64,000 nt of DNA, from the NCBI GenBank assembly GCA_033398695.1, contig CM065806.1, positions 45,967,001-46,031,000 of the forward strand. Direction: 5' to 3'. Below the pieces are notes generated by a model. That model was not told the DNA's origin. It did no database searches and saw only the letters and a program-made list of their open reading frames with translations. Origin of the DNA: Orobanche coerulescens (Eukaryota; Streptophyta; Magnoliopsida; Lamiales; Orobanchaceae). The translations under genes and the position numbers were made by a program. Positions 6,924 through 60,993 of this stretch are shown here, one piece after another (the stretch's first letter is position 1; every line of letters begins with the position of its first letter).

Positions 6924-6974
6924 TGGTATCGGAGCGCAAGCAACGATCCAAGTTCTGATGATCATAGAAGGCGT

Positions 6975-7160
6975 TGCGGTGAGTTCGCTGGGGGGTTCGG
7001 GGGGCAGCGCGCCCCCGTCGGGGTTTGGGGCAGAGCCCCAATCGAAATTTTTCTGGTAATTCGTAGTTTCTGTTTGGCTCGTATTCGCTGTTTGGCTCGT
7101 ATTTTCTGTTTGGCTCGTATTCGCTGTTTGGTTCGTATTTGCTGTTTGTCTCGTATTTGG
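6975..7160 (+). repeat. Copia leader: GC-rich stem and 19-bp tandem repeats
   Basis: Between primer site and gag, about 6985-7040 is strongly GC-rich and can form two G/C stems (ggggg...ccccc and ggggcagagcccc). It is followed by five degenerate copies of ctgtttggctcgtattcg up to the gag start. Confidence 0.8.
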
Positions 7161-7164
7161 CACT

Positions 7165-11352: not shown

Positions 11353-11365
11353 GTTTGAGGGGGGA

Positions 11366-11521
11366 TGTTAGCTTATGTTTGTAATTGGGCCTGGCCCACT
11401 TCTCTTGTTAGCCGTTTAGGGTTTTGGTTCCTTGCCTTTAAATAGGGCTTGTATGTTTCTTTGTTATTATGCTTTTCTACTCTAATAAAAACCCTAGTAA
11501 ACTTTCGGCTCTAAATCTTCA
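11366..11521 (+). repeat. Copia 3' LTR
   Basis: Same length as the 5' LTR, with no difference seen on reading. Followed directly by the cttat duplication. Confidence 0.95.
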
Positions 11522-19291: not shown

Positions 19292-21608
19292 TTAATGGAC
19301 AGAAAAAATACTGAAAGGGGAAAAAAATATGGTGTATGGATGCAGGATGTAATATGGTATATGGACTGTTAGAAAAAATATCATGAGCAGAAAAAAGAGA
19401 ATATGGTATATGGATGCAGGATGTATTATATTATATGGTATATGAGTAGAAAAAATATGCACCTCTGATGTTTTCTTAAGTCCATAAAGTTCACGTGCCC
19501 AATCAGCTCCACATAGCAACATTTCGACAGTTTCAGTTTTCAAGCAAGCACGATGAGGTTCAATTACTCTACCACCGGCACTGAAAGTTGACTCAGAAGC
19601 TACCGTTGTGATTGGAATAGCTAAAACATCAGCAGCCATTAGTGGCAATACAGGATATTTACCTCGATTTGCTCTCCACCAGTCTAATGCCTCAAAATGG
19701 TCTCCAACAACAGGATAAATGCTTTCTTCCAAATATAAATCAAATTCTATTTTTATAGGCTGAGAACATGTATCTGATTGTCTCAAAAACAACCCATATT
19801 TCGAAATTCCCCCAAGAACAGGCTTGCCTAATACACTTCAATGCCTATGCAAAGTTTGCGAACCACTACTAGTCGATGATGACTCCAAAGTTGACTCTTT
19901 CCCTTTATTTATTTTTTCACCTACTTTCTCATCAACATATTCCTTATATAAATCAGTCAATGCTTTTTTAACAGTATCCAAAACATTTTCCGCTTCTTCT
20001 CCATAGATGATAGGAAAACAAAATCGTAGAAGCTGCAACTTGAACCTTGGGTCCAACACAGAGCCAATTGACATACATAAATTACATTCTGACCAATATT
20101 TGTCAAACTTCTTCTTTATGGGGGTAGCCATATCTCTGATGTATGATTTCCTGTAATTGCATTTCATATCTAGCAATTCTTTAACTCTATAAACCTCAGA
20201 GAGAAATAAATTTGCAGTTGGATACTGAGAACCGGATACGACATGTGTGACATCATTAAAGATCTCTAAGAATTCACATACATTACTAACCTTTTCCCAC
20301 TCTTCATCATCAGGGACATACTCAAATCCCCTATCCCAATTACCAAAACGACGAAACACTTGCTTAAAAGTGCATGCAACTGAGAGCATATTATAAGTTG
20401 AATTCGAGCGCGTCGGGACATCTAGAACTAGCTTCCTAGATTTAGCTCCAAATTGAGTAGCAAAAAGACCAAACTGATTTCGGCGACCCTCTGAACCGGC
20501 AACATATTTAACTCCATCTCTTATTGTGTCAATAATTGACTCAATTGGTTTGAGTCCATCTTGCACCAAGAGATTGAGAATATGTGCACAACAACGGACA
20601 TGGAAAAATCTACCATCCAAAGGTAAGTGATCCCTAATCATCACATAATTTTGCTTCAGATTTCTTAGTGCCACATCATTCGCTCTAGCATTATCTACAG
20701 TGATCGTGCCTATTTTTTTCTCAATTCCCCATTCGATGAATGAATTAGAAAGTGCTTCGGCAATGACAACACCACTGTGGGAAGGGGGAGCATTACAAAA
20801 GTTAAGGACTCGCATATTCAACTTCCAGTTACTATCTATCCAGTGCCAAGTTACAACCATATACCCAAGTTTTTGATTTGAAGATGTCCACATATCCGTT
20901 GTAATATTCACTTTGCCCACATCTTTTAAAACTTCTTTCAATTTCACTTTTTCATATTCATAAACCTTATAACAATCTGACTTCGCAGTTGTCCGACTAA
21001 CCTTTTTCCAAAAAGGAGTTGCAGTCCTCATTATTTCATTAAACATAAAAGACTCGACATGAGTAAAAGGTAACTCATTGATCATGATGTAATGCGCTCT
21101 TTTCTCCCTCATATTCGAATGGTCATACTTGAAAGTACTAAGTTGTTCATTTACCTCTTCACCTTCGGTACCTGGATTTGACTTAAAAGCCAATTGTGTC
21201 TGTTTATGCTTCCCATTTTTCTTTAAGCAAGACGTCAAGTGTTTGTTCAATGCAGACGTTGAAGATGTCTTCCCTCTTGATAACATACTTTGACACATCT
21301 TGCATTGTGCACGCTTATTCCCTGTTTTTGGATCATCGGAATATGCGCTCATATACTGCCACACACCATTTGTCTTCTCTTTCTCTTTTTTCTTAGAAAC
21401 TTGTGCATCTTCCTCACTGGGTGTCGGGTTTGTTGACTTCCTTTTTTTTACCACTTTTGTGAACATCAACAATCTCATCGTCATCATTTTCCTCAAAACC
21501 CAATTCTTCCTCTCCGAGTTCTGGCAGTTGGGTATCTTCGAAAATGGTATCCATACACGGGCTAGAAGATGATTGAATTGAACGATTTGGGTTGTTCAAC
21601 AAAGACAT
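19292..21608 (-). pseudogene. BED-type hAT transposase (RICESLEEPER-like), two frameshifts
   Basis: Transposase of the inner hAT. From the ATG at 21608: an acidic N-terminus; a frame change in an A8 run near 21447; a BED zinc finger (CKMCQSMLSRGK...HLTSC, around 21310-21230); the catalytic core with ITTDMWTSSN (about 20910), TVDNARANDVALRNL (about 20690) and RCCAHILNLLVQDGL (about 20570); a helical region; then a second frame change between about 19838 and 19795. Last is the C-terminal dimerisation domain (PLMAADVLAIPITTVASEST, about 19650-19590) ending near 19470. The N-terminal break in a homopolymer could be a base-calling error. Otherwise the protein looks complete, so the element may have been active until recently. 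Confidence 0.9.
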
Positions 21609-24572: not shown

Positions 24573-26912
24573 TGTAATACCCGAGATTTCTGTTATGTAA
24601 TTGGAACTTGTGATATTGTAATGATTGTACTTTTGTATGAGTACTATTCTCCGTATTTCATAATCCGATGCCATCGAGCATGTAATTTCGTGTATGTGAT
24701 TTAAATGGTTGAAATTCTGTGCATGTAGCGCACGCTACAGGCTACGGGTAGCGTACGCTAACATGGTTTCATAGCGTACGCTACCGAGTGTAATTAGCGC
24801 ACGCTACGCGTGGTCAAACTGATTGAGACGCGCGGTAGGTGAGATCTGGCCGGGGGACCCTTGTCGGATCCTGTCGAATGTATCTGGACGGCTTTCGGGA
24901 AAAGCCGAGTCAACGCCTTAGCGCACGCTAGAGGTCTATGCGTAGCGCACGCTAAGTGCCGAGTACGATTTAGGCGTGAGCCGTTAGCGCACGCTACGGA
25001 TAGTGTATAGCGCGCTAATAGCCATTTATTATAAATAGAGATGACATCCTATTCGTGAATTGATCCTTTCTTCCCCATAACCCGAACTCTTGCACTTGAA
25101 ACATAACTCCATTCATCTTAAACACTCCATATCAAACTCTTATTTCGAGATTGAAGATCTTATATCATTGTAGATTGGTGTTCAAGCCTTGGGTGTTGGA
25201 TTGCTTCATTTTCATCCGTGTTCTTCACTACTTTGAGGTAGGTGATTCTTCACCAATGATTAGTAATGTTCATGAGGAAGTTTGAATCATGTTTGGATAG
25301 CTAGTATCTCGTTTTTATCGGTCATCACATGTTAGAAGGATACTTTTGACGTATTGGTACTAGATGTCGAATGAACCTTTGAACCATCTTATTATAAGGA
25401 CTCCTAAGCATGTTTAAATCGATTTATGATCAAGTAATCGGATATTACCCAGTTGATACGTTGTATACGTTGGAATCATGTGTTTTGGAACGTAAGACGA
25501 TGGAACTTAGATTATTTCTTGAAGATCGTAGAGGAATTGTGTTATCAAGATAACTAACCGTATATTGGTATTTCATAATCATAAATTTTCCAGAAACCTT
25601 ATTAGCATGATATGCCCGAGGATAACTTGTAATATCACCATAGGGTTCATGAGTTCTTCATCATTCAACCCAGTTTTCGGTTCGTAGTATTCTGCCATGC
25701 AAGATTAGCGCACGCTAACATGTGTGAGTTAACGTGCGCTATCGAGGTTCGGTTTACGCCGCAGGCGTCGTAGCGTGCGTTATGAGGCGACAGTCGATCG
25801 CCGGTTGTGGCTAGCGCACGCTAGTCTTATACGATAGCGTACGCTAACAGTTCAGCTTAGCGCACGTTACTCATAATACGTAGCGCGCGCTAAGCAATCC
25901 AGGCAGCTTGTTTAGTTTGAGCTTTTCGGCCGTAGGTCGAATTGTTAGGCCATTGTTCGACTCGAGATGATTTGTATATCGTTCCTTTTGTTAAGGTTCG
26001 AGCTTGTTACGTTGATCGGAGGGGGCGGCCTTCGAGTGCGTCGAGAGCATTGAAGTATATCATTCTTGCCATCTTCGAGGCAAGTATCGTGATATGTTAA
26101 TATCGGTATTTTTGGAGTATACGTATGATTATGCATGTTGTTGAACATGATATTTACTTCGTTGATTTGTCATGATATTCGTTGTATATTGTTTATATGT
26201 TCATGTTGATGAACATAATGATTTGGCATATGTATATGCATGCGTTGTGTTTGTATACGTTGTACGATCTATGCTGAGGGCGCTGGATCGGATGTCCACC
26301 TCGTGTTGGTCCGACGGGATCATCTTGGGATCTAGGCTGAGGGCGCTGGATCATTGGACGGGTTATTTCCACCTCGTGTTGGTCCGACGGGATCATCTTG
26401 GGATCTATGCTGAGGGCGCTGGATCATTGGAATACCCATGCTGTGTAATGGAATCTTGTAGATTCGCATTGTCGGGTTCCGGTAGCGGAAGCCCGTGTGA
26501 TATGTCTTGTTGTGTATTGTTGATGCATATTCGAATTGTTTAAATACGATACTTGTACTTGCATTGTTTTGCTAACCCCCTCGGGGGTGGACATTTGTTT
26601 TGATGTTCAGGTAGCCAAGGAGCAGGGAAAGACCACGATCTGCAAGCGTGACGACGAAGGGGTTCAGTGATGTTTATTGTTATTGGAGATTTGTTGTCTT
26701 GGTTTGGTTTCTGTACTCGAGTACGTGTGTCCTTTGATATTAATTCGATATGGTTGTATTAATTACCCGTTGAACCAGTTGTACGTTTTCATAAACTCGA
26801 ATTTTCGCAGTATTGACGTCTTATTTTCACTTTCCTTTTTAATTAGCCTTGTAAATCCTTATTTAAAGGGTTTATGGCGCTGTAATTATTCCGAATATCT
26901 CGGGGTGTTACA
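24573..26912 (+). repeat. Tekay-like 5' LTR
   Basis: Palindrome cluster at 24727-25018 (eight tagcgNacgcta-type copies), TATA-like attataaatag at about 25029-25039, second palindrome cluster at 25706-25893 (seven copies), three copies of a unit of about 63 bp at 26270-26440, a palindrome accccctcgggggt at 26575-26588, and a 10-bp stem at 26851-26860/26866-26875. Confidence 0.95.
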
Positions 26913-27156
26913 GAATATGGTATCGGAGCTAAGATTTATGGATATCTTGGCAGTCGGGTTTTATTTGGGTCTGTTTACGTTATTTGATTTACGGGTCGTT
27001 TGTAACATCACTGTTCAGCCGAAGTCGTCATGTGGACCGTGGTTGTAAGTCTCTTAATCTCTTATACTACCGTTTTACTGAATTACTGTTTTGTGAGTAT
27101 TGACGGACTTTATTTCAAAAAATTTGTTCTGTATATTGAGAAATTTCATTTACAGT

Positions 27157-31750: not shown

Positions 31751-34070
31751 TGTAATACCCGAGATTTCTGTTATGTAATTGGAACTTGTGATATTGTAAT
31801 GATTGTACTTTTGTATGAGTACTATTCTCCGTATTTCATAATCCGATGCCATCGAGCATGTAATTTCATGTATGTGATTTAAATGGTTGAAATTCTGTGC
31901 ATGTAGCGCACGCTACAGGCTACGGGTAGCGTACGCTAACATGGTTTCATAGCGTACGCTACCGAGTGTAATTAGCGCACGCTACGCGTGGTCAAACTGA
32001 TTGAGACGCGCGGTAGGTGAGATCTGGCCGGGGGACCCTTGTCGGATCTCCGTCGAATGTACGGGCGGCTTTCGGGAAAAGCCGAGTCAACGCCTTAGCG
32101 CACGCTAGAGGTCTATGCGTAGCGCACGCTAAGTGCCGAGTCTGATTTAGGCGTGAGCCGTTAGCGCACGCTACGGATAGTGTATAGCGCGCGCTAATAG
32201 CCATTTATTATAAATAGGGACATCTGACCGTGAATTGATCCTTTCTTCCCCATAACCCGAACTCTTGCACTTGAAACATAACTCCATTCGTCTTAAACAC
32301 TCCATATCAACCTCTTAGTTCGAGATTGAAGATCTTATATCATTGGAGATTGGTGTTCAAGCCTTGGGTGTTGGATTGCTTCATTTTCATCCGTGTTCTT
32401 CACTACTTTGAGGTAGGTGATTCTTCACCAATGATTAGTAATGTTCATGAGGAAGTTTGAATCATGTTTGGATAGCTAGTATCTCGTTTTTATCGGTCAT
32501 CACATGTTAGAAGGATACTTTTGACGTATTGGTACTAGATGTCGAATGAACCTTTGAACCATCTTATTATAAGGACTCCTAAGCATGTTTAAATCGATTT
32601 ATGATCAAGTAATCGGATATTACCCAGTTGATACGTTGTATACGTTGGAATCATGTGTTTTGGAACGTAAGACGATGGAACTTAGATTATTTCTTGAAGA
32701 TCGTAGAGGAATTGTGTTATCAAGATAACTAACCGTATATTGGTATTTCATAATCATAAATTTTCCGAAACCTTATTAGCATGATATGCCCGAGGATAAC
32801 TTGTAATATCACCATAGGGTTCATGAGTTCTTCATCATTCAACCCAGTTTTCGGTTCGTAGTATTCTGCCATGCAAGATTAGCGCACGCTAACATGTGTG
32901 AGTTAACGTGCGCTATCGAGGTTCGGTTTTCGCAAATAACGTACGTATCGTACGTTATGAGGCGACAGTCGTTGCCGATTTGTGGCTAGCGACGCTAGTC
33001 TTATACGATAGCGTACGCTAATGATTCGACTTAGCGCACGTTACTCATAATACGTAGCGCGCGCTAAGCAATCCAGGCAGCTTGTTTAGTTTGAGCTTTT
33101 CGGCCGTAGGTCGAATTGTTAGGCCATTGTTCGACTCGAGATGATTTGTATATCATTCCTTTTGTTAAGGTTCGAGCTTGTTACGTTGATCGGAGGCGGC
33201 CTTCGAGTGCGTCGAGAGCATTGAAGTATATCATTCTTGCCATCTTCGAGGCAAGTATCGTGATATGTTAATATCGGTATTTTTGGAGTATACGTATGAT
33301 TATGCATGTTGTTGAACATGATATTTACTTCGTTGATTTGTCATGATATTCGTTGTATATTGTTTATATGTTCATGTTGATGAACATAATGATTTGGCAT
33401 ATGTATATGCATGCGTTGTGTTTGTATACGTTGTACGATCTATCTTGAGGCGCTGGATCGGATGTCCACCTCGTGTTGGTCCGCGGGATCATCTTGGGAT
33501 CTAGCCGAGGCGCTGGATCATTGGACGGGTTATTTCCACCTCGTGTTGGTCCGACGGGATCATCTTGGGATCTATCTTGAGGCTGGATCATTGGAATACC
33601 CATCTTTGTGTAATGGAATCTTGTAGATTCGCATTGTCGGGTTCCGTAGCGGAAGCCGTGTGATATGTCTTGTTGTGTATTGTTGATGCATATTCGAATT
33701 GTTTAAATACGATACTTGTACTAGCATTGTTTTGCTAACCCCTCGGGGAGTGGACATTTGTTTTGATGTTCGGGTAGCTAGGAGCGGAAAGCGACCACAC
33801 AAGTGGCGGCGTGACGAGGGGTTGATGATGTTTATTGTTATTGGAGATTTGTTGTCTTGGTTTGGTTTTTGTACTCGAGTACGTGTGTCCTTTGATATTA
33901 ATTCGATATGGTTGTATTAATTATCCGTTGAACCAGTTGTACGTTTTCTTAAACTCGAATTTTCGCAGTATTGACGTCTTATTTTCACTTTCCTTTTTAA
34001 TTAGCCTTGTAAATCCTTATTTAAAGGGTTTATGGCGCTGTAATTATTCCGAATATCTCGGGGTGTTACA
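31751..34070 (+). repeat. Tekay-like 3' LTR
   Basis: Closely similar to the 5' LTR but with clustered short differences, including the second palindrome cluster (about 32880-33065) and the tandem units at 33440-33600, where several GC-containing bases are missing. Confidence 0.95.
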
Positions 34071-34881
34071 TTCTATATGTCAATTTACTAAGCTACATTA
34101 GATGTGGCTAACTTATTAAACCAAATAACTCTCTACGTATGAAAATGAAGTCGCGTTGAGTTTGACCAATTAACACTTCAAATATGTAAATTTTTATTGT
34201 TATAAACAACTAATTATACCGTCAATCATAAGATATGATTTACAAATAGCATATTTTGATAAGTAAATAAGCGTATAATAGCGTTTAAATACATCGATTT
34301 AATATCACTTTAATCCTTTATCTTGCACTCTTGCATTATATCACTCTCAAGTAGTCATATGTACCAACTAAATATTCATTCAGTTTCAATGTATTAAATC
34401 TTTCGTGTTGCATTATACTCTCGTTTATAGTCATTGCCAAAACAAAACACAATAAACTAAAGATGAATCAAGCATAAATATTGATACGGATCAAGGAGGA
34501 AGCCCACATAGCCCAACCCAAGCCGGGCCCACTGAAAGTGGCTAGGGTCGGCTGAATGTTTTGAAGATCCTATCCAAGTTATTTATTTCAGTCTTTTGTT
34601 TGATTGTTATCGTTTTTATTTCGGATTATGTTTCTATCTTGTTTGCATATTTTCCTATTTAAAGGGTTGTATTCCCTGGTCGGAGGGACACAATTGAATA
34701 AAGAATTTCTTCCGAAACAACTTTGTTTCTTGTTCATTCGGTCGGCCGGAGAACAACGCCGACGATCGTTGCTTGGTTGGCCAAGAACGATTGTCGCTAG
34801 GGCTACGCCTAGGTTTATCGTTTTTACCCACTCGTATACGAATCCGTATCAAGTGGTATTCAGAGCTCAGGTAATCTCAAG

Positions 34882-36006
34882 ATGTCGGGGAACGAAGGTC
34901 ATCATCGCAAGACCGTAGATTCGCCGCCGGAGGCAACGGGCATGACGGGCGTGATCCTCGCGATGTCGAAATTGAAAGACTTCGTCAATGGGTTCGTGAA
35001 CTTGAAATCAATCCGTTCGATAGATACGAAAGACAGTATGAAGACACACCAATCGACTCCGCTGTGGAAGAATATGAAAACGAAGGTGGTGAATTCAAAT
35101 TTTTTTTTTCAACAGCATAATCCACGGCAGCCGACCCCTCTCCAACGACACCGTCGGCCATCCCCAGCAACACCACAACAACGCCGTCGTCGCACACCGC
35201 CGGCATCACCACAGACTGATCCGATCCTCTCTTTGGGTATTCACACAGAAATGCCAGAATTTGAGGGACGTTTATGCCCGGATGATTTTCTTGATTGGTT
35301 ACGCACGGTGGACCGTATATTTGATCTTTGTGACACACCTGATCATATCAAGGTAAAACTCGTTGTTATTCGACTAAAAAAGTCTGTTTCTTTATGGTGG
35401 GATCATGTGCAAAATCAAAGGTTCCGGGAGGGTAAACATCGGGTTGAATCATGGGACAAGATGAAGCGGCTCATGGAAAAAAAGTTCTTGCCCGTGACTC
35501 ACAAGCAAGATTCGTACGTGGAGTTTCACACCCTCAAACAACAAACCCTTAGGGTAGAGGAATTTATTGCCGAGTTTGAACGTGTCCGTATGCGTTGTGG
35601 CGTAGAGGAAAACGAAGAACAAACTATTGCACGTTTTCTGGGTAGTCTTCGTACTGATATATCTGATGTTGTTTATTTGCAACAATATTACTCGTTACAT
35701 GATGTTTGTAGGTTGGCACTCAAAGTGGAAAAACAGTTATCGGCAAAACAGAAAACAATAACTTGTTTTGGCTCTTCTAGCCGTGCACTACAGTCGGCTA
35801 CAGCCCCTGTTCGGGTCTGCCCAATCAAAGCCGACCCACCAGCCCTTACCGGCGTCTCACCAACTCCATCAACCTCCTCACTCCGTTGTTTTAAATGTCA
35901 AGGAATAGGTCACTTAAAGAGGGATTGTCCAAATAAACAAGTCCTCGCACTTATTGATGACGTTGATCCACTTTATGACACTGAAGACGTGGTCGAGACT
36001 GAAGTT
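34882..36006 (+). pseudogene. CRM-like gag, interrupted by SINE
   Basis: Open from an ATG 30 bp past the 5' LTR. A charged, proline-rich N-terminus, then the gag core (MPEFEGRLCPDDFLDWLRTV, LWWDHVQNQR, EEFIAEFERVRMRCG) and one CCHC knuckle (CFKCQGIGHLKRDC, near 35890). It ends artificially in the SINE's poly-T. Reading across the SINE's target duplication keeps the same frame into pol, so gag-pol was a single open frame when the SINE arrived. Confidence 0.9.
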
Positions 36007-36451
36007 TTTTTTTTTTGATAACTAGGTGATCCCAGCTTAGCCGGACTAATCCTAGTCCCTCAATGAACCCACTCCTAACCCATTGAGAGAAGTAAATCGC
36101 GAGTCGTTCGAGCAATTCCAGGGTTCCCAATGCCTTTTCTGTACACTTCTGCGCACAAGGAGAAGCCCTTAATTGATTAACAGCGCCTCAGGTTCCCAGC
36201 ACAGTTCTCGGGAGAACAACCACTGATTGGTCAGCACCTCCGGGTTCCCAGCAAGGAAATACTCCCACACTGCCGCTTGACGCGAGATTAAACATTGATT
36301 AGCGGTCGCTCGAGCTAGCCCCGGGGAGCTAGAGGATCATAAAGAGAAAAAACCTCCTCTTTCACCTCCTTGGTGGGAATTGAACCCAAGACCTCCCAAA
36401 GGGTGTCTTTAAGAGCAAGTGTTCTACCACTGGACCACCAACCAATTCCCA
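36007..36451 (-). mobile_element. tRNA-derived SINE, full length
   Basis: Minus orientation. The tRNA-like head at about 36443-36372 has box A (tggtccagtggtaga) and box B (ggttcaattcc at 36386-36376), the two internal RNA polymerase III promoter parts. The body contains repeated ggttccca words and the tail is a run of A (poly-T at 36007-36016). It is flanked by a perfect 16-bp duplication ggtcgagactgaagtt (35991-36006, 36452-36467). At 445 bp it is long for a plant SINE. Confidence 0.93.
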
Positions 36452-37763
36452 GGTCGAGACTGAAGTTGTTTACCCTGGTCGGGGTGAGCTCCTTGTCACC
36501 CGCCGATTGCTTAACACTTGTGTCCTTGATCAAGATGACGATACCACGTGGCTACGAACTAATATTTTTCGTACTCAGTGCACAACTAAGGGTAAGGTTT
36601 GCACTGTAATTATTGATGGCGGAAGTTGTGAGAATATGGTGTCTCCCACCATGGTTGAAAAATTGGGTCTTCCAATACAGAATCATCCAGACCCGTATCA
36701 ACTTACTTGGCTCAAAAAGGGCAATATTGTCCAAGTTACTCACCATTGTCTCGTGCAATTTTCCATTGGAAATAAGTATACGGACGAGTTATGGTGTGAG
36801 GTTATCCCGATGGACGCCTGCCATATTTTGTTGGGGCGTCCATGGTTATACGACCGTCGAGTAAAACATGATGGCTATCGTAACACGTACACATTTAAAA
36901 AAGATAGCGTTAATATCACGTTAGCACCCTTAAACCCGAAATATGGTCCACCCGAGCGCGTGCTGCTATCAAAAATCGACTTTGTGGGCTTTGCAAAGGT
37001 GTCCCCACCATCGGTTGTCTTTGGGCTTTTAATGATCGAAGAAAACCCCGTCACCGAGGCTGCCCCGTTGTCGATGGTTCTGTTGCTCAACGAGTTTAAA
37101 GATGTGTTCCCTGAAGAAATTCCAGCCGGGTTACCTGTGATACGTGAAATTCAGCATTGTATAGACTTCTTGCCCGGATCTAGTATACCAAATAAGCCTG
37201 CTTATAGGATGAATCCTAAAGAATTCGCAGAATTGCATCGGCAGGTTACCGAACTATTGGAGAAAGGGCTTATTCGGGGGAGCATGAGTCCGTGTGCGGT
37301 ACCCACTTTACTTGTTCCTAAACCAGGTGGGACGTTCCACATGTGTATTGATAGTAGGGCAGTTAATAAAATTACTATCAAGTATCGTTTTCCAATCCCA
37401 CAGTTTGATGATCTTCTTGACCACCTTCATGGATCAAGTGTCTTTTCAAAAATTGACTTACGAAGTGGCTACCATCAGATCCGTATGCGTCCCGGGGACG
37501 AGTGGAAAACCGCACTCAAAACAAGAGATGGGTTGTACGAGTGGATGGTCATGCCATTCGGGTTGTCTAACACACCAAGTACGTTCATGAGGTTGATGAA
37601 TCATATTTTTAAACCGTTTATCGGCCGGTGTGTCGTCGTTTATTTCGACGACATTTTGGTCTTTAGCAACAATGAAGCTGAACATCTCCGCCACCTCCGA
37701 GAAATTTTTTGGTTCTACGCACTCAGAAATTATTTGCTAACCGAAAAAAATGTCACTTTCTAA
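36452..37763 (+). pseudogene. CRM-like protease and RT
   Basis: Continues the gag frame after the SINE. Aspartic protease at about 36600-36660 with DGG rather than the usual DSG (VIIDGGSCENMVS). RT: spacer [67 protein letters not shown] and the catalytic VVVYFDDILVFS at about 37627-37662. Frame lost near 37700-37760, stop at 37761. Confidence 0.9.
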
Positions 37764-38708
37764 CTCAGGAAGTTATTTTTTTGTGTTATTTGATTTCAGG
37801 AACGGGCATTCGTATGGATACAACAAAAATCTCCGCCATTACAACCTGGCCGCCGCCTACATCATTACATGACGTGCGCAGCTTTCACGATATGGCGTCG
37901 TTTTTACCGCCGGTTCATTCGGGGGTTTAGTACGATTGTTGCCCCGATTATGGAGTGTTTAAAAAGAAGCAAATTTGTGTGGAATACAGCAGCCCAATCG
38001 GCCTTCGAACAGCTCAAAAACGCTATGACCGAAGCTCCAGTTTTGGCATTTCCAAACTTTGAACACGTTTTTCAGGTGGAGTGCGGTGCTTCTGGGCACG
38101 GAATTGGTGGTGTTCCCAGTCAGTTAAACAGGCCTATTGCTTTTTTCATTGAGAAACTCAATGACACGAGACGGCGTTATAGCACGTACGATAAAGAATT
38201 CTATGCCATTGTTCGCAGTCTCGAGTATTGGCGTCATTACCTTTTACCGGCTGAGTTTATTTTGTATTCCGACCACCAAGCTCTCAAGTTTATTCAAGGA
38301 CAAGCTAAATTAAATCCCCGGCATGCTAAATGGGTGGAAACGCTTCAGGATTTTTCTTTTGTCATTCGACATAAAGCCGGATCAGCCAACTCGGTGGCTG
38401 ATGCTCTGAGCCGCCGCCCAACGTTATTATCTTCTACTTCTTTTCAGGTTTCGGGGTTTGCTCCTTTTGCACACTCGTATCAGGCTGATCCTGATTTTAA
38501 GGAGTTGTGGGACAAATGTCATGGTGGTATTTTTCGTGACTTTGTGCGGCGGGATGGTTTTCGATTCAAGAGGCGTCGTTTATGTGTTCCCGTTTCGTCT
38601 TCAAGGGAGGCTATTATATTAGAGTGCCATCAGGGTGCACTTGCTGGTCATTTTGGAAGAGCAAAAATAGTCGCCTTGGTGGGGGATCGATTTTTTTGGC
38701 CCAAATTT
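37709..38708 (+). pseudogene. CRM-like RNase H and start of integrase
   Basis: After the frame change: end of RT (ANRKKCHFLTQEVIFL), then another change near 37870. RNase H follows (VECGASGHGIGGV, IEKLNDTRRRYSTYDKEFYA, FILYSDHQALKFI, HKAGSANSVADALSRRP, about 38080-38410), then the integrase zinc-binding region (ECHQGALAGHFGRAK), cut at 38708 by the solo LTR. Confidence 0.9.
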
Positions 38709-41607
38709 GTAAGATCCGCGATTTTTGATTTTCGGTAAATTTCTTTTTTTGGCGGAAGTCCATCTTGGCGACTCTATTGTGACCGTTTCGTCATTCCGAG
38801 AGTGATTAATTCTGCACTTTTTGTCATCCGAGTTCTTTTTCGTGTCGTCTTATTGAGTTCCGTGTTCTTAAGCGACTTTTCCGCACTTGAGTTTGATTCT
38901 TGCGGATCTCGTCCGAAACTGTTGTTTCAAGTTTCTCATAAGTTCGTGTAATGTTGTTATACGTGTTGAGAGCTTTGGCTTAGTGTTTCGATCGTGTATC
39001 GTGTATTTCGGACGTTTTGGGCCGTTTTTGTAATTTCCCAAAGTTTGGGGTAATTACTTTCGTTGTCGTTATTCCGAACCTTCGGTTAGTCGGAATTATA
39101 TTTTCTTTTAACATTTGAGTTTGTTGCTGTGCACTCTTCGTATGCATGTCCCCATCTTGTGTTGTTGTTGTCGTTTCACGGCTTCGTCGCGCTCGTACTC
39201 GACGAGCTGAACTTAGCAATTCTGGGACTACTAAGTGACTTACGTACGCTATGCTATATGCATAACGTACGTTATCATCTTGAGCCTTATGTACGTTAAG
39301 CCTTCTCATTATGTACGTAAGGGGTATTCCAGTTCAGACAGTGAGTTCTGGCCATCGATAGCGCACGCTATGTTTTGGCCCTAACGTTCATTAACTGTGC
39401 GTATTACGTACCTTAAGCTCTTGCCATAATGTACGTAATGGTCTTCGTTATTTCGGACAGGAGGTTCTGGGCATGTCTTACGTACGGAATATTTCATGTC
39501 TTACGTACGTAATACCTTTAACATACGTTATTCTTTGTGTATAACGTACGTAATACATGTGCGGGTTTATATACCTAGGAGTTGACCGAGTTCGTCATTT
39601 TCTTCACCTTCACTTCGTCTCTCCGCGGCTGGGCGACTCGTGGGCCATTGAAGGGCGATTTTGGGGTCTTGTAACTCCAAGTTTACATCTTCCTTGAGTT
39701 CTTGGTGTTGATTAACAACATCAATCCGTGTTCTTCGTCTTTGATTCGAGGTAATCATCTTGTAAACCCTTCCTTTATATTTCGTGAATCTTCAAGATTC
39801 GGGTTATTCTTCATGAATCGTGCTATTGTATATCATCAATCAGTTGTATTGATTCTCTTCCCATGTTTTGATTCGTATTTCTTACCGTATTCGGGTTCGG
39901 ATGATGTTCTTGATGTTCTTTGGGAAATATTGAGCCCCAAGTGTCCGATCCTTTGTCTCTACAAATTCTTGTTAAGAATTTCGTGTGTTTTGCATCTTCC
40001 TTGAGATCGACCTTATAGTGACTTAGTTGTTCTTGTGTTTTCGACCTAGTCGGAAGATTCGAGGGTTTCCGGTCGAGCTTTCCTGTTGCTTCGCGTGCTT
40101 TGGATTTGAGGCAAGTACCTTGTTCATACACTTCTTGTTTTGTGGATATGATGATCGGTGATCGTCTAAATGTGTTTATTTGGTTGTTTGAAATGAACTT
40201 TCAAAAGATTCGGTTAGCCTCGTTAAAGGCTCTCTTTCAAGACCTTGTGTATTTTGTGATTAGTGTGTTTCATAAACGATTATGTGAATCTTATGGATAT
40301 GGTTGGTGTTGATGTTGCGCTTGATAATATGTGTGTACGTATATTGGCTCATTTCGGTGCGTTGTGGCTTGACGTTATGTTTTGCTAAGTGTTTGATGCC
40401 TCTGGGTGAATAGTTTGGATATCTTTGTTGTATTGTACTATGGATGTGAATGTGTGGATGTGGGCGGGGCCTACGGTGACACATGGCATGCGATCATGTG
40501 GTCAGGATGCAACAAGCGATTGATCCAACCGTGAGAGCCTAAGAAAAACTACGGTGACACATGGCTTGTGATCATGTGGTCAGAATGCAACAAGTAATTG
40601 ATCCAACCGTGAGCGCCAAAGAATACCTACGATGACATATGGCATGTGATCATATGGTCGGGAGACAACAAGTGATTGATCCAACCGTGAGATGCCGTGA
40701 CAAGTGTTCAGCTGGTGTGTTTATGATTTGTGAATGTGATTTGCTCACCTCGGGAGGGTCCGTCGAGGCCTCGAGGGAATCTATGACTTCACTATGGATT
40801 CACGAGTTGGTGTTGTATTTGTGTGACCAAGATTTACGTATCTTGGGTGATTATGTTGTGTTGATTTTATGTCCGTTGAGGACACGTGACGTGAGTTTTG
40901 ACCCTGTGAATTGTTGTTGGTTTTATTTGTGAAAACAAAACCTTTGGGGCTGTGACCCCTGTTGATTTTTGGAAAGAGAATGATTCGATAATCCTAAAAT
41001 GTTTTCTACTAAAACTCCCGATGGCTTATTAAACCATTTTGTAAATTGTTTCTCTTGAATCGTGATCTTTCGATTTTGGAACGTTTTACCCAAACTCTTG
41101 CTTCGGGAAATATTTTCGTTGTGTTGGAATATATGAGGATTCCTGATTATTATTATTCTTGGAACTTGAATTGTATGACTCGTATCTGCACTTTGTACTT
41201 GCACTAGCAAAATAGTGGAATTTTGCTAACCCCCGAGTAATCGGGGGGTGGATGTCTGTATTGCATTCAGGTTTTGGGGAGCATAGCACAGGGTCGGCAT
41301 GAAGGATGATGAAAGATGAACGATACTAATCACAAGAGGACCCGTATAATGTCATATTGGTTTAGTTGTATTTTATTTTCGCTGTAGTATTCTTTCCCTG
41401 TTGTACGGGAGTGTGTTGTATTCGACCTCTGCGTGGGCATGTAGTGTGATTGAGTTGTATGTATTTATTGAAAGACCAATTCGGTCTACTGAGTCATTTT
41501 AGCCTTAAAGGCATTGTTGAGATGTTCGATGTTGTTACCAGCCTGGTAGATCCTTGAAGAAAGGTTCTACGGCGTGTAATATCCCTGAGCGGATTGGGGG
41601 TGTTGCA
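38709..41607 (+). mobile_element. Solo LTR (gypsy) inside integrase
   Basis: 2899 bp starting TGTAAGATCC and ending GTGTTGCA, with target duplication aaatt (38704-38708, 41608-41612). Palindrome-rich region at 39236-39560 (acgtacgt-type words); TATA-like tttatatacc at about 39566-39575; three units of about 78 bp at 40466-40690; stems at 41205-41228, 41229-41247 and 41546-41570. No internal domain, so a product of LTR-LTR recombination. Clearly homologous to the LTR at 58053. Confidence 0.93.
40466..40690 (+). repeat. Minisatellite, about 78-bp unit, three copies
   Basis: Units contain cctacggtgacacatggc, atcatgtggtca and ttgatccaaccgtgag, with a few substitutions each. Confidence 0.9.
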
Positions 41608-42600
41608 AAATTGGCTAGAGATGTGCAGAAAGTTATTAACCATTGTCGTGTGTGGCATATAGCCAAGACGCAGCACACTAATCAGGGTCTTTATACTCCC
41701 TTACCTACGCCTGAAGGTCCTTGGGAAGACGTTAGTCTTGATTTTGTCCTTGGCCTGCCATTAACACAACGCAAGAAAGATTCCATCATGGTAGTCGTTG
41801 ACCGTTTCTAAAAAATGGCTCATTTTATCCCGTGTTCTAAGACATTTGACGCCTCCCAGGTAGCTCGCCTATATTTTGCTGAAATAGTGCGCTTACACGG
41901 TGTGTCGCGATCTATCACTTCTCACCGAGACATTAAGTTTGTTAGCTATTTCTGGCGTACATTGTGGAAGCGATTGGGGGCTAAGCTTAATTTTAGTAGT
42001 TCGCACCATCCTCAAACCGATGGGCAAATCGAGGTGACCAATAGAAGTCTTGGAAGTTTACTTCGTTGTTTGGTGGGTGATAAACCGAAACAGTGGGATG
42101 TTGCTTTACCACAGGCTGAGTTCGCATATAATCGGTCCAATCACAGCTCTACGGGTCGTAGTCCATTCTTTGTTGTGTATGGACGCAATCCTTTTACTCC
42201 TCTTGATTTGGCTCCTATGGTGTGTGATGGTTCAGTTAGTGCCGAGGGGGACGAGCGTGCCCGTCAGATTAAAGAGTTACATGCACAAGTTCGCGAGCAG
42301 ATCATCAAGCACAATCTACAATACCAAACTCGTGCGAACAAGCATCGTAAGCAGGTCATTTTTGAAGAAGGTGATCTTGTGTGGATACATTTGAGACGTG
42401 CCCGGTTTCCTCAGGGTCGTTTTGGTAAGCTCCACCCGCGCACCGATGGTCCTTTTCTATCTTGAAGAAAATTAATGATAATGCGTACAAGGTGGATTTG
42501 CCAGGTCACTATGGTGTTTCTGCTACTTTTAATGTTGCTGACCTCTCTCCGTATACGCCCGCCGCTGACTTTGATGGTGACTCGGGGCCGAGTTGTTTTT
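41608..42600 (+). pseudogene. CRM-like integrase
   Basis: Resumes after the solo LTR with the second zinc-binding half (HCRVWHIAKTQ), then DVSLDFVLGLP and VVVDRF followed by an in-frame TAA at 41809. The core goes on (KMAHFIPCSKTFD, SITSHRDIKFVS, HHPQTDGQIEVTNR, KQWDVALPQAEFAYNRSNHS) and ends with DLVWIHLRRARFP and GKLHPRTDGPF. A frame change near 42455 separates the tail (NDNAYKVDLPGHYGVSATFN), ending 12 bp before the 3' LTR. The DDE aspartate positions are visible, one as HRD instead of DRD. Confidence 0.9.
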
Positions 42601-42612
42601 AGAGGGGGAGGA

Positions 42613-43247
42613 TGATACGGATCAAGGAGGAAGCCCACATAGCCCAACCCAAGCCGGGCCCACTGAAAGTGGCTAGGGTCGGCTGAATGTTTTGAAGATC
42701 CTATCCAAGTCATTTTTTTTTTTTGATGTTCCAAACTTACACCTGACTAGTCCTCGGGATAACAGCCCCGGTCCCACAGTACTGCTACCAGTTAAATCGC
42801 GAGATGTGTATCTGGCTCCCAGGTTCTTAAATATCCTCAACTACCGCGCACAAGGAGTCGTCCCCCAAGTGATTGCTCCATGCTGGACCCCCCCAAATCC
42901 AACCGCAGGTTCCCACCGAGATCTGGCCTCCCACACTGCCGCTTGAAGCCCTCAATATTTAATTGTTCCACCAGCGTATTATTTCTTTTGTTTGATTGTT
43001 ATCGTTTCCTTTAATTTCGGATTATGTTTCTATCTTGTTTGCATATTTTCCTATTTAAAGGGTTGTATTCCCTAGTTGGAGGGACATAATTGAATAAAGA
43101 ATTTCTTTCGAAACAACTTTGTTTCTTGTTCATTCGATCGGCCGGAGAACAACACCGACGATCGTTGCTTGGTTGGCCAAGAACGATTGCCGCTAGGGCT
43201 ACGCCTAGGTTTATCGTTTTTACCCACTCGTATACGAATCCGTATCA
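42613..43247 (+). repeat. CRM-like 3' LTR with SINE insert
   Basis: Matches the 370-bp 5' LTR except for the insertion at about 42715-42976 and around ten small differences. Confidence 0.92.
42715..42976 (-). mobile_element. Related SINE copy lacking the tRNA head
   Basis: Starts (plus strand) with poly-T and shares words with the SINE at 36007: taaatcgcgag, gcgcacaaggag and tcccacactgccgcttga. The tRNA-like box A/B part is absent, so it is 5'-truncated or rearranged. Exact limits are uncertain by a few bases. Confidence 0.75.
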
Positions 43248-43252
43248 AATAT

Positions 43253-49466: not shown

Positions 49467-51947
49467 TGTAACACCCCCAAAATCGTATGGGAATATTACA
49501 CGCCGTAGATCCTTCCCACGAGGATCTACCAGGCTAAACATCACAAAACGACTAAGTGTTTGCCCTGCCGGGGCAAAGAATACAATGATACGGATCATTA
49601 AGGTCAATTATAAACAACTACACGGACCGGTGAGGTCGTACAACTGACACAAACAGAAAAATACAACTCTTTACAATGAATACCCACGCAGGGGTAAAGA
49701 TACAAAATAGCGGAAGGCGGATTACGACTCTGACGATACAACACAACTTGACTCCCAACTCTTGATTAGTATCGTAGCCCGTCACTTCCTGTGCCGATCC
49801 TGTGACTGCTCCCCGAACCTGAAAGCACCTGGACACAAAACAAACATCCACCCCCGATTACTCGGGGGTTAGCAAAATTTCACTATTTTGCTAGTGCAAG
49901 TATAATACGATACGAAATGTAACAAGCAAATAGCAACCACGAATTTGATACGGAAATCAAATATCAAAATGTTCCCGAGAAGTTTTAGAATTTTGAACTC
50001 AAGCAAGTATTTGAAAAGAAACTCGTCATCTCGGAAATTTTTAAAGTATAAATTCTTTTGGACCTCGAGTCCCAATTTACAAAACCTTTTCGAAAGCGTT
50101 AGGGCCGCAGCCCGATTCTCGTTTCAAAACACACTAGTTAAGATATCATAATAGGTCCGTGACCCAACTTTAAAACGTTATCCAATCAATCACTGTTACA
50201 CAATCACTGTTCGTACACATCATGTACCGAGCTCCAGAGGCCTCGACGGACCCTACCCGCACCACATGCATTGTTCGTACACATCATGTACCGAACTCCA
50301 GAGGCCTCGTCGGACCCTACCCGGAACACACGCGTTGTTCGTACACATCATGTACCGAACTCTAGAGGCCTCGTCGGACCCTACCCGGAACACACACGTT
50401 GTTCGTACACATCATGTACCGAACTCTAGAGGCCTCGTCGGACCCTACCCGGAACACACACGTTGTTCGTACACATCATGTACCGAACTCCAGAGGCCTC
50501 GTTAGACCCTACTCGGAACACACATTATCACGACACAACTCATATTGATCAACTCAACACATTACAACGAACAACACACATTATTACCAATATGTCAAAC
50601 CATTCAACAATACACCGTAATACATATTCAAGTATGTAATCAAACCGACACAAATATCATAATCATCACGATAACTCAACCATGACCAATCACGCACGAC
50701 ACAAACCATATGATTAACACAACCAACACAATTCCACAACATTAACCAAGTGAGGATATCATCACTACCATCAATCGTTCACAATAATCAAATCACACGA
50801 AGCATATCCACGAAGGTAAACCAAATCATCATAAACCTAACACGAAGTCTCTATTCACAAGACACAAATTGTATATCAAGATACTTGCCTCGATAATCGA
50901 TACCGAACACTCCGACGAACACGGCTCAACCGGGAAACCTCGAACACCTACAATTCTCTGGCAATAACAACGAGGATACGATTACAACGAGAATCAAGAC
51001 CAAAAACAACGGAACCAAACTATCGAAGGGAAACTCATTGGGACATTTAATCGAACATTAAATGTTCAATAACTCCCAAGAACACTCGAATCGCCAATCG
51101 AGTTAAACAAACTTGAAATATGGATATACAACCCATAAAAGACGATTAATAATACTCAATAACGTCAACCGATTCATCAAAATTGGACGAACAACGAAAA
51201 TCAAGAAGGAAATCCCGAAAGTCAACCCTATGAGATTTCAAGAATTTACCTCGATCCGACGAAGAACAAGGATTAGATGATGATTGACACGAACTAAGCT
51301 TCCCAAAATGATGCACGATGATACCTCCGATCACCACCCAGGAGTCCAAGCCGAGAATCACGGAAGGAGGAAGGGTGAAACATGAACAAAACCCGTCGGC
51401 CAGGACTATATATGGTCGAGCATGTTACGGCCGTAACATGCAGCACCTTACGGCCGTAACTCGGTCAACCCCCCTTACGGCCGTAATCGGTCTACCCCTT
51501 ACGGCCGTAACAGATCGTCCCTGGGCTAGTGTCCAACATGTGCGGGCGCCTTACGGCCGTAACGGCCATGCATTGCGGCCGTAACTGGCCCTGCATTGCG
51601 GCCGTAACCGGCCATGCATTGCGGCCGTAACTTGGCCAGGCCTTGTGGTCGAAACTCGATCGTTCCGACAGTCTGGTTAGACGTTCGACAACATCTCGGT
51701 CACACTAACGCACCGGCTATGATTCAAAACAATAACAAGCAATTTACGAAACATAACATATCACAAGCACGCATTTAATCAAAGAAACGCACGCGACACA
51801 AGTTTCACTCGACGAACATTACAACAGAACACATCATACTGTACATAATAGAAAAACGTATCCCACATAATCATAACGAAACAAAATAACCGGCACCAAA
51901 CGACAAATAATTCAGGGCAACTGGAAATAAAAATCTTGGGTATTACA
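49467..51947 (-). mobile_element. Solo LTR (gypsy), minus orientation
   Basis: 2481 bp. On the minus strand it starts TGTAATACCC and ends GGGGTGTTACA. Target duplication tcagt/ttagt (49462-49466, 51948-51952; one mismatch). It contains palindromes of the ttacggccgtaa type (51420-51620), a TATA-like catatatag at about 51405-51413, five tandem units (50226-50525) and three stems near its 3' end (49505-49529, 49849-49870, 49871-49895). Termini match the Tekay-like element. Confidence 0.9.
50226..50525 (-). repeat. Minisatellite, about 64-bp unit, five copies
   Basis: Each unit carries ttcgtacacatcatgtacc, agaggcctcg and accctacccgg. Copies differ by only a few bases, so the array expanded recently. 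Confidence 0.92.
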
Positions 51948-58052: not shown

Positions 58053-60993
58053 TGTAATATCCGTAATTTCGATTTTCGGTAATTTCTTTTTTTTTTCGGC
58101 GAAAGTCCGTTTTGACGACTCGCTCATGACCTTTTCGTCATTCCGAGAATGATTAATTCTGCACCTTTTGTCATCCGAGTTCGTTTCGGTGTCGTTTTGT
58201 TGAGTTCCGTGCTTTTTGGCGACTTTTCTGCACTTGAGTTCGATTCTTGCGAATCTCGTTGGAAACTGCTGTTTCGAGTTTCCCGTAAGTCCGTTTAACT
58301 TTGTTAGACGTGTTGTGAACTTCGGTTTGGTTATTCGATCACGTATCGTGATTTTCGGACGTTTTGGGCCATTTTTGTAATTTCCCAAAGTTTGGGATAA
58401 TTACTTCCGTTGTCGAATTCCGACACTTCGGGTGGTCGGAATCGTGTGTTCTCTTAGCGCTTGGGTTCGTCTTTGTGAGTACTTCGTAACCGTATTTTCG
58501 ATTCATATTCAGGTTCGGGTTTCGGGGTCGTCCGGGCCGTCGGAGTGGCCACGACCGAGACGGCCGCAGCATGCCTTTGGCGAGTTATGGCCGTAATGTG
58601 CGATTCTGGCCGTAAGTGATCGGCGAGCATGGCACAGCGAATGCCGATTCTGGCCGTAAAGTCGAGTTCTGGCCGTCTGGTGCTAAGCGACTCCGGACGA
58701 ATGCGATTCTGGCCGTAAGAACTGCCACTGGCCGTAAGGCCCTCGATTCTGGCCGTAAATGTCGGCCATGGTCGGCTATTTAAAGGCCTGGACGTGGATC
58801 TATCGGTCATTTTCCATTTTTCCTTCGTTTTTCGCGACCCTTCGACGGAATTTGAGGGTTTTTGACCGGGAACATCATAGAACATCATTTTTGGAAGGCT
58901 TGTGTTAATTATATCATCATCTAATCCGTGTTCTTCGTCCAAATCGAGGTATTTTGGCCTGAACCCTTGTTTTTGAAGATTTTAGGGATTTTCCTTTTGA
59001 TTTCGATTCCAATCCGTTTCTAATCAATTAATTGTCGTATAAACGTTGTTTTGGACGTGTTCTACGGATTGTATATCCGTATTTCGAGTTCGTTGGAATA
59101 CAATCGGGATTTTTGGTTTTCTAAGGAACCTTGAACATTTAGTATCCGATTAAATGTCTCTAAGGGTTCCCTTCAATTCTTGACCGTGTTTTCCTTTGTT
59201 TTCAATTGTTATTCTCATAGTAACCGTGTTTCCGTTGGATTTCACGGAGGATTGTAGGTGTTCGGGGTTTTCCGGGTTGTGCCGTATTCGTAGGAATATT
59301 CGGGTGCCGACTATCGAGGCAAGTATCTTGTCCATACGTTTCATGTTTCGTAGGCATAATTATTGATAAATGATTTTATGCGAAATCCAATGTTTAATGA
59401 ACGTAAAAAGGGATCGGTATGTTCTCGATAAATGTTGTCTTTCAACGAAAATTCTTGTACTTCGTGAATATATGTGTTCTCGGAAGATATGTGTTGGTTT
59501 TGTATGTTCAAAGATGCTATGATCACTTTGAGTGAGTTTAATAGACCGTAATCCTTTGCCGGGGATTACGTAATGTTATGTGTACTTGTTCGGTAAGAAC
59601 GTAATGTGTGTGATATTGGTTGTTATTCCTTCGTGAGGAGGTTGTGACACTTGGTGTTGTTTGGTATTGGTATTACTTGTGGTTGTGTGACATTAGTTGT
59701 GAGTGTACGTCGACTAAAGTGGCCATTCTAGCGAAGTACCTAGCATTTGTATGCATATTCTAGTATTCGAATTATGGCTTCCCGTGGTGTTGTGGATGAT
59801 ATGTGTATGTTCACCTAGGGACGGTCTGACGAGGCCTCTAGGGATACGTTGCCGTGAGTTTCGTATCGCGAACTATGGTTAACCACCCAGGGATGTCCGA
59901 CGGGGCTCTGCGGGGTACGGTGGCCGTGAGTCTCGTCCCAAGGTTAACTTTGAAATGTTTTGTTGGAGAACTATGATTTTTGGCGCATATTTCGTCTGAT
60001 TAGAATGGCAGTCCAAATGGTAGGGTACTTAGCTGGAATGGCACCAATAAATGTGTTGTGTATGATTCGTCTCTTGGTTGTGATAATTTGGTATGGGTAC
60101 GTGAGTCCTGTGGTTGCTCTGTGCATTGTAGCTCTGTGGTATGTTGAGTGAGATTATTGTCATGGTAATGTTTGACACGGTGTAGTTTCCACCAGGTTAT
60201 TCTTGCGAGTATATGATGTGGATGATTTGGGTCGTGGACCCCTGTGTTGTGATTGGAATGTTATGATTGGGTCGTGGACCCTGTTATCTGCTATAGGAAT
60301 TGTATTTTGAAATAAATGATTGTTGGGCTATGTCCCTAAGCATTTCGAAAGGCTTGAAAATTCTTAAACCCCAAACGTTTTCAAAAACTCCCGAGATCGT
60401 AAAATGTTTTGTAAGTTGTAAAATGGTTTTATTCTTATTTTTCGTAATCTAAATTGTTTTGATCAAGTGAATTATCTCGGGAAGTATATTCATGATTTCT
60501 ATGTTCTTGGAGTATGATATGTATGGCTTGTCTTTGTATTTATACTTGCACTAGTAAAACAGTGGAGTTTTGCTAACCCCCGAGTATTCGGGGGGTGGAT
60601 GTCTATTTTGCGTCCAGGTACTTGCAGGTTGCTTGGGAGTAATTCACAGAATCGTTACGAAGGATGATGGATGACGGCGATACTAATCACATGAAGACCG
60701 GTGTTGAGTATTTGGTGATGTCTTGTTTTGTCCTTCCGTTGTGTTTATTTTTCCCTATGTGGGAACGTTGATTTATGTTAACCCCTGCGTGGGTATGAGT
60801 TACGAGAAAGAGTAATGTAGGGTTGATGTGTATGTTGTGGTAAAGAGCAAATCGGTCTAATGGTTCGTTAATTACCCACTTCGGTATGTAATGTATCGTA
60901 TTGTATTGTGGTGTTTCTGTATTTAGCCTGGTAGATCCTCACGGAGAGGGTTTACGGCGCTGTAATATTCCCGAGTGGTCTGGGGGTGTTACA
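58053..60993 (+). mobile_element. Solo LTR (gypsy) inside RNase H remnant
   Basis: 2941 bp starting TGTAATATCC and ending GGGTGTTACA, with duplication ctact (58048-58052, 60994-60998). Homologous along its length to the solo LTR at 38709. Array of ctggccgtaa words at 58560-58765, TATA-like tatttaaagg at about 58777-58786, short repeats at 59810-59945, and stems at 60554-60577, 60578-60597 and 60931-60955. Confidence 0.93.

Follow-up and report, generated by a model that had tools for sequence, protein, structure and literature searches.

The stretch of DNA analysed here, called the window below, comprises 64,000 nt of the Orobanche coerulescens genome (assembly GCA_033398695.1, contig CM065806.1, positions 45,967,001-46,031,000 of the forward strand). 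Five retrotransposon long terminal repeats (LTRs) in the window share a block of tandem hairpins: the solo LTRs A, B and C, and the 5' and 3' LTRs of element T (T5 and T3). Very probably, the hairpins constitute the structured 3' end of a U2-type GC-AG spliceosomal intron, which would lie wholly within the LTR, downstream of the TATA box. That RNA of such LTRs is at least sometimes spliced and then reverse-transcribed is strongly supported, because two related elements lack this second LTR intron exactly, and one of them also the first, in both of their LTRs. In the pol region of element T, matches to RVP_2, RT_RNaseH and SH3_Tf2-1 are above the cut-off and those to RVT_1 and Chromo below the curated cut-off; the chromodomain match, although below it, hints at a chromovirus. 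The label Tekay was given to it by an earlier sequence-only reading of the window.

The hairpin block reads as a 3' splice site: it contains TTTTGCTA-A-C, followed by the T-rich loop of hairpin 3 and then by CAG/GT (the slash marks the border between exon and intron). In LTR A, hairpin 2 encloses the sole AG between the putative branch-point adenosine and the acceptor. Far upstream of the block, GAG/GTA is found 165-209 bases downstream of the TATA box, and further on follows GAG/GCAAGTAT (or C as its last letter), a near-perfect GC donor. The rules for branch points and acceptors are well established. The donor consensus is also given in PMC2490688. In the 3190-column alignment of A, B and C, the signals AG/GTR, AG/GCAAGT, YTAAC and CAG/GT are each conserved once, in the correct order and on the sense strand, and the antisense count of these four conserved signals is zero. 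Such a set was obtained in none of 900 column shuffles, even when the looser motifs YTRAY and YAG/G were allowed. The distance from the conserved YTAAC to CAG/GT is 40-41 nt in A, B and C and 35 nt in T. The acceptor of intron 1 was not located in A, B and C. The leader of element T has the order exon 1, intron 1 (GT-AG), exon 2, intron 2 (GC-AG) and exon 3, which continues to the LTR end and the primer-binding site. In T3 the acceptor of intron 2 is altered (CAG to CGG at 33771-33773).

The host assembly (3.65 Gb, 1279 contigs) was searched for further copies. The first look gave 1862 candidate places for the block with T and 2201 with C. In each genome search 40 places were scored, so that the copies obtained represent close relatives of the queries rather than a random sample. 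The resulting structure alignment contains 88 rows from genome and window, 52 of them distinct. CTAA is present at the branch in all 52 distinct rows; of the 88 rows (three places are counted twice), 86 have YAG at the acceptor. Each of the four T splice signals is carried by all 20 T-type loci L050-L069, which include one window copy. Coordinates of the features are compiled in Table 1.

Table 1. LTR copies, predicted splice signals and RNA structures in the window.
Feature	Positions	Strand	Remarks
Solo LTR A	38708-41607	+	target-site duplication (TSD) AAATT/AAATT; TATA box 39566
A, intron 1 donor (predicted)	39749-39756	+	AG/GTAATC, first intron base 39751; AG/GTR alone conserved in A, B and C
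A, intron 2 GC donor	40111-40118	+	GCAAGTAC after GAG
A, octamer	41195-41202	+	GTACTTGC, complement of GC donor
A, hairpin 1	41205-41228	+	9 bp; ends in branch-point sequence
A, branch-point adenosine (predicted)	41229	+	single unpaired base between hairpins 1 and 2; use as branch point presumed
A, hairpin 2	41230-41247	+	7 bp, GUAA loop
A, hairpin 3	41249-41269	+	T-rich loop; acceptor CA in its base
A, last intron base (predicted)	41270	+	CAG/GT
Solo LTR B	58053-60993	+	TSD CTACT/CTACT; TATA 58776, GT donor 58949, GC donor 59319
B, block	60542-60617	+	octamer 60542-60549, hairpin 1 60552-60575, branch-point adenosine 60576, hairpin 2 60577-60594, hairpin 3 60596-60616, last intron base 60617
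Solo LTR C	49467-51947	-	flanks TCAGT/TTAGT; TATA 51414, GT donor 51249, GC donor 50888
C, block	49829-49903	-	octamer 49903-49896, hairpin 1 49893-49870, branch-point adenosine 49869, hairpin 2 49868-49851, hairpin 3 49850-49830, last intron base 49829
Element T, 5' LTR (T5)	24573-26912	+	TSD TTCTA/TTCTA; TATA 25029
T5, LTR intron 1	25238-25995	+	GAG/GTAGGT ... TTAAG/GTTCG, 758 nt; gone from both LTRs of element C15, present in element C6
T5, internal LTR exon 2	25996-26079	+	84 nt; retained between both junctions in element C15
T5, LTR intron 2 (GC-AG)	26080-26610	+	GAG/GCAAGTATC ... TTCAG/GTAGCC, 531 nt; absent in four LTRs of two elements
T5, parts of intron 2		+	octamer 26549-26556, branch-point adenosine 26575, hairpin 2 26576-26587, hairpin 3 26588-26609
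Element T, 3' LTR (T3)	31751-34070	+	GC donor 33251, octamer 33712, branch-point adenosine 33738

If such an LTR intron is spliced out and the RNA is then copied back, intronless LTRs should exist. A probe of 110 bases joining exons 2 and 3 of T (55 bases before the GC donor and 55 after the acceptor) gave a whole match at four of the 40 scored places (of 1628 candidates), while only one half was matched at the other 36. The four whole matches correspond to the LTR pairs of two elements, C6 (91%) and C15 (85%). The junction is located at the previously predicted base in L090, L092 and L097, and L091 lacks one base just before it. In C6, intron 2 is gone and intron 1 is kept; both LTRs of C15 also lack the GT-AAG intron 1, and exon 2 remains. 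C6 is flanked by the TSD ACTTC/ACTTC and C15 by AAATA/GAATA. The two LTRs of each element agree in their intron state. This favours reverse transcription of spliced RNA over later deletion.

On the simplest view the losses in C6 and C15 would be independent, since C6 is in U3 and exon 1 more similar to the intron-bearing T5 (92-93% identity) than to C15 (79-81%). Two observations count against independence. In the internal region C6 is 90.7% identical to T and 88.4% to C15, and C6 and C15 have a common variant stretch in exon 3, which is missing from T5. A single loss in the ancestry of C6 and C15, followed by recombination, is therefore still conceivable.

The sequence-only reading had described two adjacent stems in LTR A and in the minus-strand LTR C, and both pairs were found there. 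They are present in LTR B as well, although the interval given for them, 60554-60597, was off by 2-3 bases. The base changes described for the first stem, T-A to C-G and C-G to U:G, were also observed. Hairpin 3 had been overlooked, and the statement that the LTRs of T keep only the second part of the structure has to be corrected: they also keep the third stem and a short first stem, which by eye has 5 bp (TAGCA/TGCTA in T3, with a single mismatch in T5). Folding gives three tandem hairpins in A and B; in C, hairpin 3 is shorter in the minimum-energy fold. The pairing of the predicted hairpins 2 and 3 is conserved. In copies of the A/B/C type, the loop of hairpin 2 is GUAA or GUAU, and several T-type copies have UUCG; GUAA and UUCG are stable tetraloop types.

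The hairpin block is conserved beyond chance. No other stretch of 60 columns in the LTR alignment of A, B and C is as well conserved (0.90 of the columns invariant; mean 0.25, standard deviation 0.15); next come the LTR 3' end and the islands at GAG/GTA and GAG/GCAAGTA, and BLASTN of C against T5 gave matches only at the block and at the island of the GC donor. The z-scores of RNA folding are -3.8 in A, -3.9 in B and -3.4 in C, and lower in magnitude in the two T LTRs (-2.1 and -1.4). When the window was scanned with a covariance model built from the five copies, all five were recovered at E <= 9.5e-16, without any further hit below E 0.067. No match to Rfam was found for 38700-41620 up to E 1. 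Pattern searches for block copies in viral_contigs and a first one in genome_contigs gave no hit, and no relative of a pol piece was found in viral_contigs. A later genome_contigs match in a Bacteroidetes contig (model E 0.00035), which had been picked by pattern, is regarded as chance. A minus-strand pattern hit in L055 had no match to the model and was left out of the copies.

Among the five window copies, covariation is weak: four measures were reached by 31-37 of 500 shuffles and a fifth by 222 of 500. It is clearest in hairpin 3, in which all cells are paired and two of the six pairs are changed on both sides. In the 88-row alignment, which was fitted to the structure, 97.3% of the 1094 pair cells hold standard pairs, and neither this value nor the covariation score was reached by any of 500 shuffles. 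Cells changed on both sides number 29, compared to 10.7 in shuffles, again with none of 500 reaching the observed number, while the number of pairs with a double change (four) is not unusual (51 of 500). When the partner columns were slid by one to three positions, pairing fell to 32-58%. There are 73 G:U cells and only 10 A/C cells, which assigns the fold to the sense RNA, and the sense fold is more stable than the antisense fold in all five window copies. Selection on the RNA structure of the block, proposed by the sequence-only reading, is supported by the two-sided pair changes beyond shuffles and slid partners, by the excess of G:U in the sense RNA and by a covarying pair of a further helix described below.

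This further helix involves the GC donor. An octamer that ends two bases 5' of hairpin 1 is exactly complementary to the donor located approximately 0.35-1.6 kb upstream of it: A has the octamer GTACTTGC and the donor GCAAGTAC, and B and C have the octamer ATACTTGC and the donor GCAAGTAT. In T the pairing extends over 11 consecutive positions including one G:U. It is the sole Watson-Crick helix of at least 7 bp that is conserved in A, B and C; a conserved 8-bp helix was found in one of 100 column shuffles, and one with a double change in none of 100. The octamer resembles the 5' end of U1 small nuclear RNA (snRNA; AUACUUACCUG) and departs from it by one change, the one required for pairing with the C at donor position +2. 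In folds of the whole intron the helix has a probability of 0.76-0.83 in C, 0.86-0.95 in T5 and 0.99 in T3.

For a survey of this pairing we used 88 branch-region hits, a set that overlaps with the 88 alignment rows but is not identical to them. It comprises the window and the loci to L097, leaving out L001, the window repeats L002, L050 and L070, and eight loci superseded by longer versions. A donor was found for 77 hits. Its pairing with the octamer is Watson-Crick at all eight positions in 44 hits, includes one G:U in 28 and one mismatch in five, so that all eight pairs are kept in 72 of 77, a fraction that is biased upward because the search for both partners used motifs and tolerated one mismatch. 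By the same motif search, 75 of the 77 donors read GCAAGTAT or GCAAGTAC, and GC is kept in 76, the motif having favoured GC. Donor position +8 is free of this bias, since either letter was allowed at each end, and here the pair covaries: T-A was found in 54 cases, C-G in 22 and C/A in one. The lone C/A is a mis-assignment in L081, where two LTRs are close together and the donor of the other LTR was taken. Beside L066 and L081 (minus strand) we noticed a T-like family with the octamer GTACTTGT, the donor GCAAGTAC, a UUCG hairpin 2 and an intron of approximately 0.4 kb. C-G at +8 thus occurs across the family split, in this T-like family as well as in the A family, and on the simplest reading the double change would have arisen at least twice.

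Based on these observations, we propose the following mechanism. Intron 2 would fold in such a way that its GC donor pairs with the octamer resembling the U1 snRNA 5' end, hairpin 1 covers the sequence 5' of the branch-point adenosine, hairpin 2 hides the intervening AG (in the A/B/C type) and the acceptor is held in the base of hairpin 3. The fold would compete with U1 at the donor and limit access to branch point and acceptor, and most of the RNA would stay unspliced, as needed for transmission of an intron-bearing LTR. The spliced RNA would have a leader with fewer upstream ATGs and may favour Gag translation, because introns 1 and 2 contain 39 of the 45 ATGs that precede gag in T, counted from the assumed start site (34 bases after the TATA motif), while exons 1 and 2 have none. 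We infer that splicing is restrained or timed by the fold, which would let unspliced genomic RNA survive. The reasons are the pairing of the donor itself, a linker shorter than that of the zipper stems of yeast and the apparent rarity of processed copies. It might instead promote splicing. The full picture is that of a plant Ty3/gypsy lineage with two LTR introns, the second controlled by a conserved RNA device which would occlude the three splice signals together: a cis-encoded mimic of the U1 5' end would pair with the GC donor, and hairpins would frame the branch-point adenosine and hold the acceptor. With it the element would choose between spliced mRNA and unspliced, LTR-preserving genomic RNA, and escapes would leave short intronless LTRs behind as a record. 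To this picture as a whole we would give about even chances.

Several points weigh against the interpretation given above. Splicing is read from genomic copies, where AGG at both intron ends means that deletion between repeats might yield one junction. Processed copies are known from the T family alone, with probes covering the T and C families: the exon 2-3 probe of the C family gave no whole match in 40 scored places (of 3568), and a probe joining exons 1 and 3 matched none of 40 scored places (of 1935 candidates). The copies in the structure alignment are related, and their pair cells are not independent. No recognisable donor is present in 11 of the 88 copies. In whole-intron folds the helix between donor and octamer reaches a probability of just 0.12 in A and 0.15-0.16 in B; the duplex energies are no better than in shuffles in A (90 of 500) and C (106 of 500), and the best duplex in B falls at another site. 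If G:U is tolerated, helices of at least 8 bp are as frequent as in the parallel-strand control (6 vs 6). Furthermore, not every intron-like signal is used. The AT-rich stretch 27045-27155 (GTAAGT...TTTACAG, 111 nt), immediately 5' of the presumed gag start of T, was considered as a third leader intron, but this is unsupported, because it is retained in both processed elements.

The main rival explanation accepts the splicing and assigns another role to the hairpins. They could be psi-like packaging or dimerisation signals located inside the intron, so that, like in retroviruses, only unspliced RNA is packaged. This role would suit tandem hairpins of the 5' leader that are stable, conserved and capped by GUAA/GUAU or UUCG loops, the intron bearing them is removed in processed copies, and the rarity of such copies (four of 40 scored places) could reflect selective packaging of unspliced RNA. 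However, the helices are built on splice signals, with the branch-point adenosine between hairpins 1 and 2, the acceptor at the base of hairpin 3 and the donor paired to the octamer, and both processed elements were still copied and inserted without the hairpins. We therefore regard a packaging role as unlikely, although it is the strongest of the competing explanations. Of the functions proposed by the sequence-only reading, namely 3'-end formation, dimerisation and packaging, all fit less well with a structure built on splice signals and with exact intron loss; a packaging signal borne by the intron is compatible with the data.

It is very improbable that the processed LTRs are not products of splicing but of deletions between AGG-type microhomologies. 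AG/G stands at the start and the end of both introns, and the junctions are ambiguous by a few bases. On the other hand, the borders of intron 2 are alike in the two elements, one element lost two introns, and the two LTRs of each element are alike. In addition, both borders of intron 2 were fixed in advance of the search, as was the donor of intron 1 but not its acceptor. Still less probable is a role in 3'-end formation, as polyadenylation or R-region hairpin. R-region stem-loops are known from work on LTRs (PMC3601003, in the part accessible), but no AATAAA is present in or beside the hairpins of LTRs A, B, C and T5: LTRs A, C and T5 have none at all, and those of B are 525 and 260 nt upstream. 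The poly(A) signals of plants may be degenerate. Donor pairing and exact intron loss would be left unexplained. Similarly remote is the idea of a DNA palindrome conserved for protein binding or recombination, or of a chance fold kept by plain relatedness: every copy is related to the others, the alignment had been fitted to the structure and the number of pairs with double changes lies within that of shuffles, but the excess of G:U over A/C cells, the more stable sense fold, the same stem with two loop types and the double changes in separate families speak against it.

Structured, regulated splicing is known from other retroelements, and what appears new here is its place inside the LTR and the arrangement of the signals. 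According to the part of a 2025 review available to us (PMC12786077), plant LTR elements are generally without introns, with Ogre and EVADE as exceptions, and two spliced copia elements of sunflower are mentioned in the accessible text of PMC7730604. Like the element described here, Ogre (Tat lineage) and EVADE/BARE1 are plant LTR retrotransposons from which an intron is removed in part of the transcripts (PMC12786077, PMC6317226, both as far as accessible). As presented there, however, their introns are in the coding region and shape the Gag/Pol output; that of Ogre is located between the coding regions of gag-pro and reverse transcriptase, whereas the two introns reported here are within the LTR. 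Among the open-licence papers listed by our searches, we recognised none that describes an intron inside the LTR of a plant element; one phrase match was a paper on a lentiviral vector.

Related principles are found outside plant elements. Yeast introns have zipper stems and downstream stems (RPS17B and RPS23B); the zipper stem lies between donor and branch point and leaves a linker of 42-85 nt, according to the accessible portion of PMC12350175. In contrast, the donor is here itself within the helix and should compete with U1 for pairing, and 26 nt separate the octamer end from the branch-point adenosine in A. In human immunodeficiency virus 1 (HIV-1), donor D1 is sequestered in one conformer of the leader and acceptors A1 and A3 are structured, an example of a retroelement that keeps unspliced RNA by structured splice sites (PMC7912102, as far as available). 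In the LTRs studied here, a single predicted fold comprises the donor, the branch point and the acceptor of one intron, and the likeness to HIV-1 does not suggest a sequence relation. GC-AG introns have AG/GC donors with otherwise near-consensus letters and are linked to alternative splicing in the accessible part of PMC2490688, where it is also cited that GC donors are poorly conserved between two nematodes (5 of 26); by comparison, 76 of the 77 donors found here keep GC with a motif that favoured GC.

The occurrence of introns in LTRs is important for several reasons. LTRs are the ends at which the element replicates, and an LTR intron should thus be lost whenever spliced RNA is copied. It is nevertheless retained in several LTR families, which requires that the element keep RNA unspliced, and each failure to do so would leave a countable record in the genome. 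This offers a testable system for the partitioning between mRNA and genomic RNA by a retroelement. Further, LTR introns may explain the length of such LTRs, and intron loss can upset the comparison and annotation of LTRs.

A further hairpin of the type GTAGATCC...GGATCTAC was noticed close to the LTR 3' end (41540-41572, 60925-60957, 49503-49535 on the minus strand, 26845-26877 and 34003-34035). By eye, its pairing is kept with changed bases in B, C and T, with one mismatch in A. At the LTR 3' terminus (41575-41607, and at the same place in B and C), just 5' of the would-be primer-binding site, there is a conserved 13-bp helix, with G:U allowed, in which the LTR end pairs with an internal occurrence of the LTR start motif TGTAATAT. 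Also by eye, U3 contains repeated, family-specific short palindromes: TAGCG(C/T)ACGCTA in T (24726-25018), TTACGGCCGTAA in C (51425-51656) and TACGTACGTA-like ones in A (39230-39560). The predicted intron 2 of C harbours a 64-bp unit five times in tandem (50208-50524), and tandem repeats with differing units were also found in intron 2 of A (78 bp), T (73 bp) and B (40 bp).

Other elements in the window include a further Ty3/gypsy element, which has short LTRs and whose integrase region is interrupted by LTR A (34482-43248; direct repeats 34482/42613 and 34614/43010; matches to gag, reverse transcriptase and RNase H). A copia element with identical 156-bp repeats at both ends is located at 6768-11521, and a hAT transposase at 19292-21595 on the minus strand.

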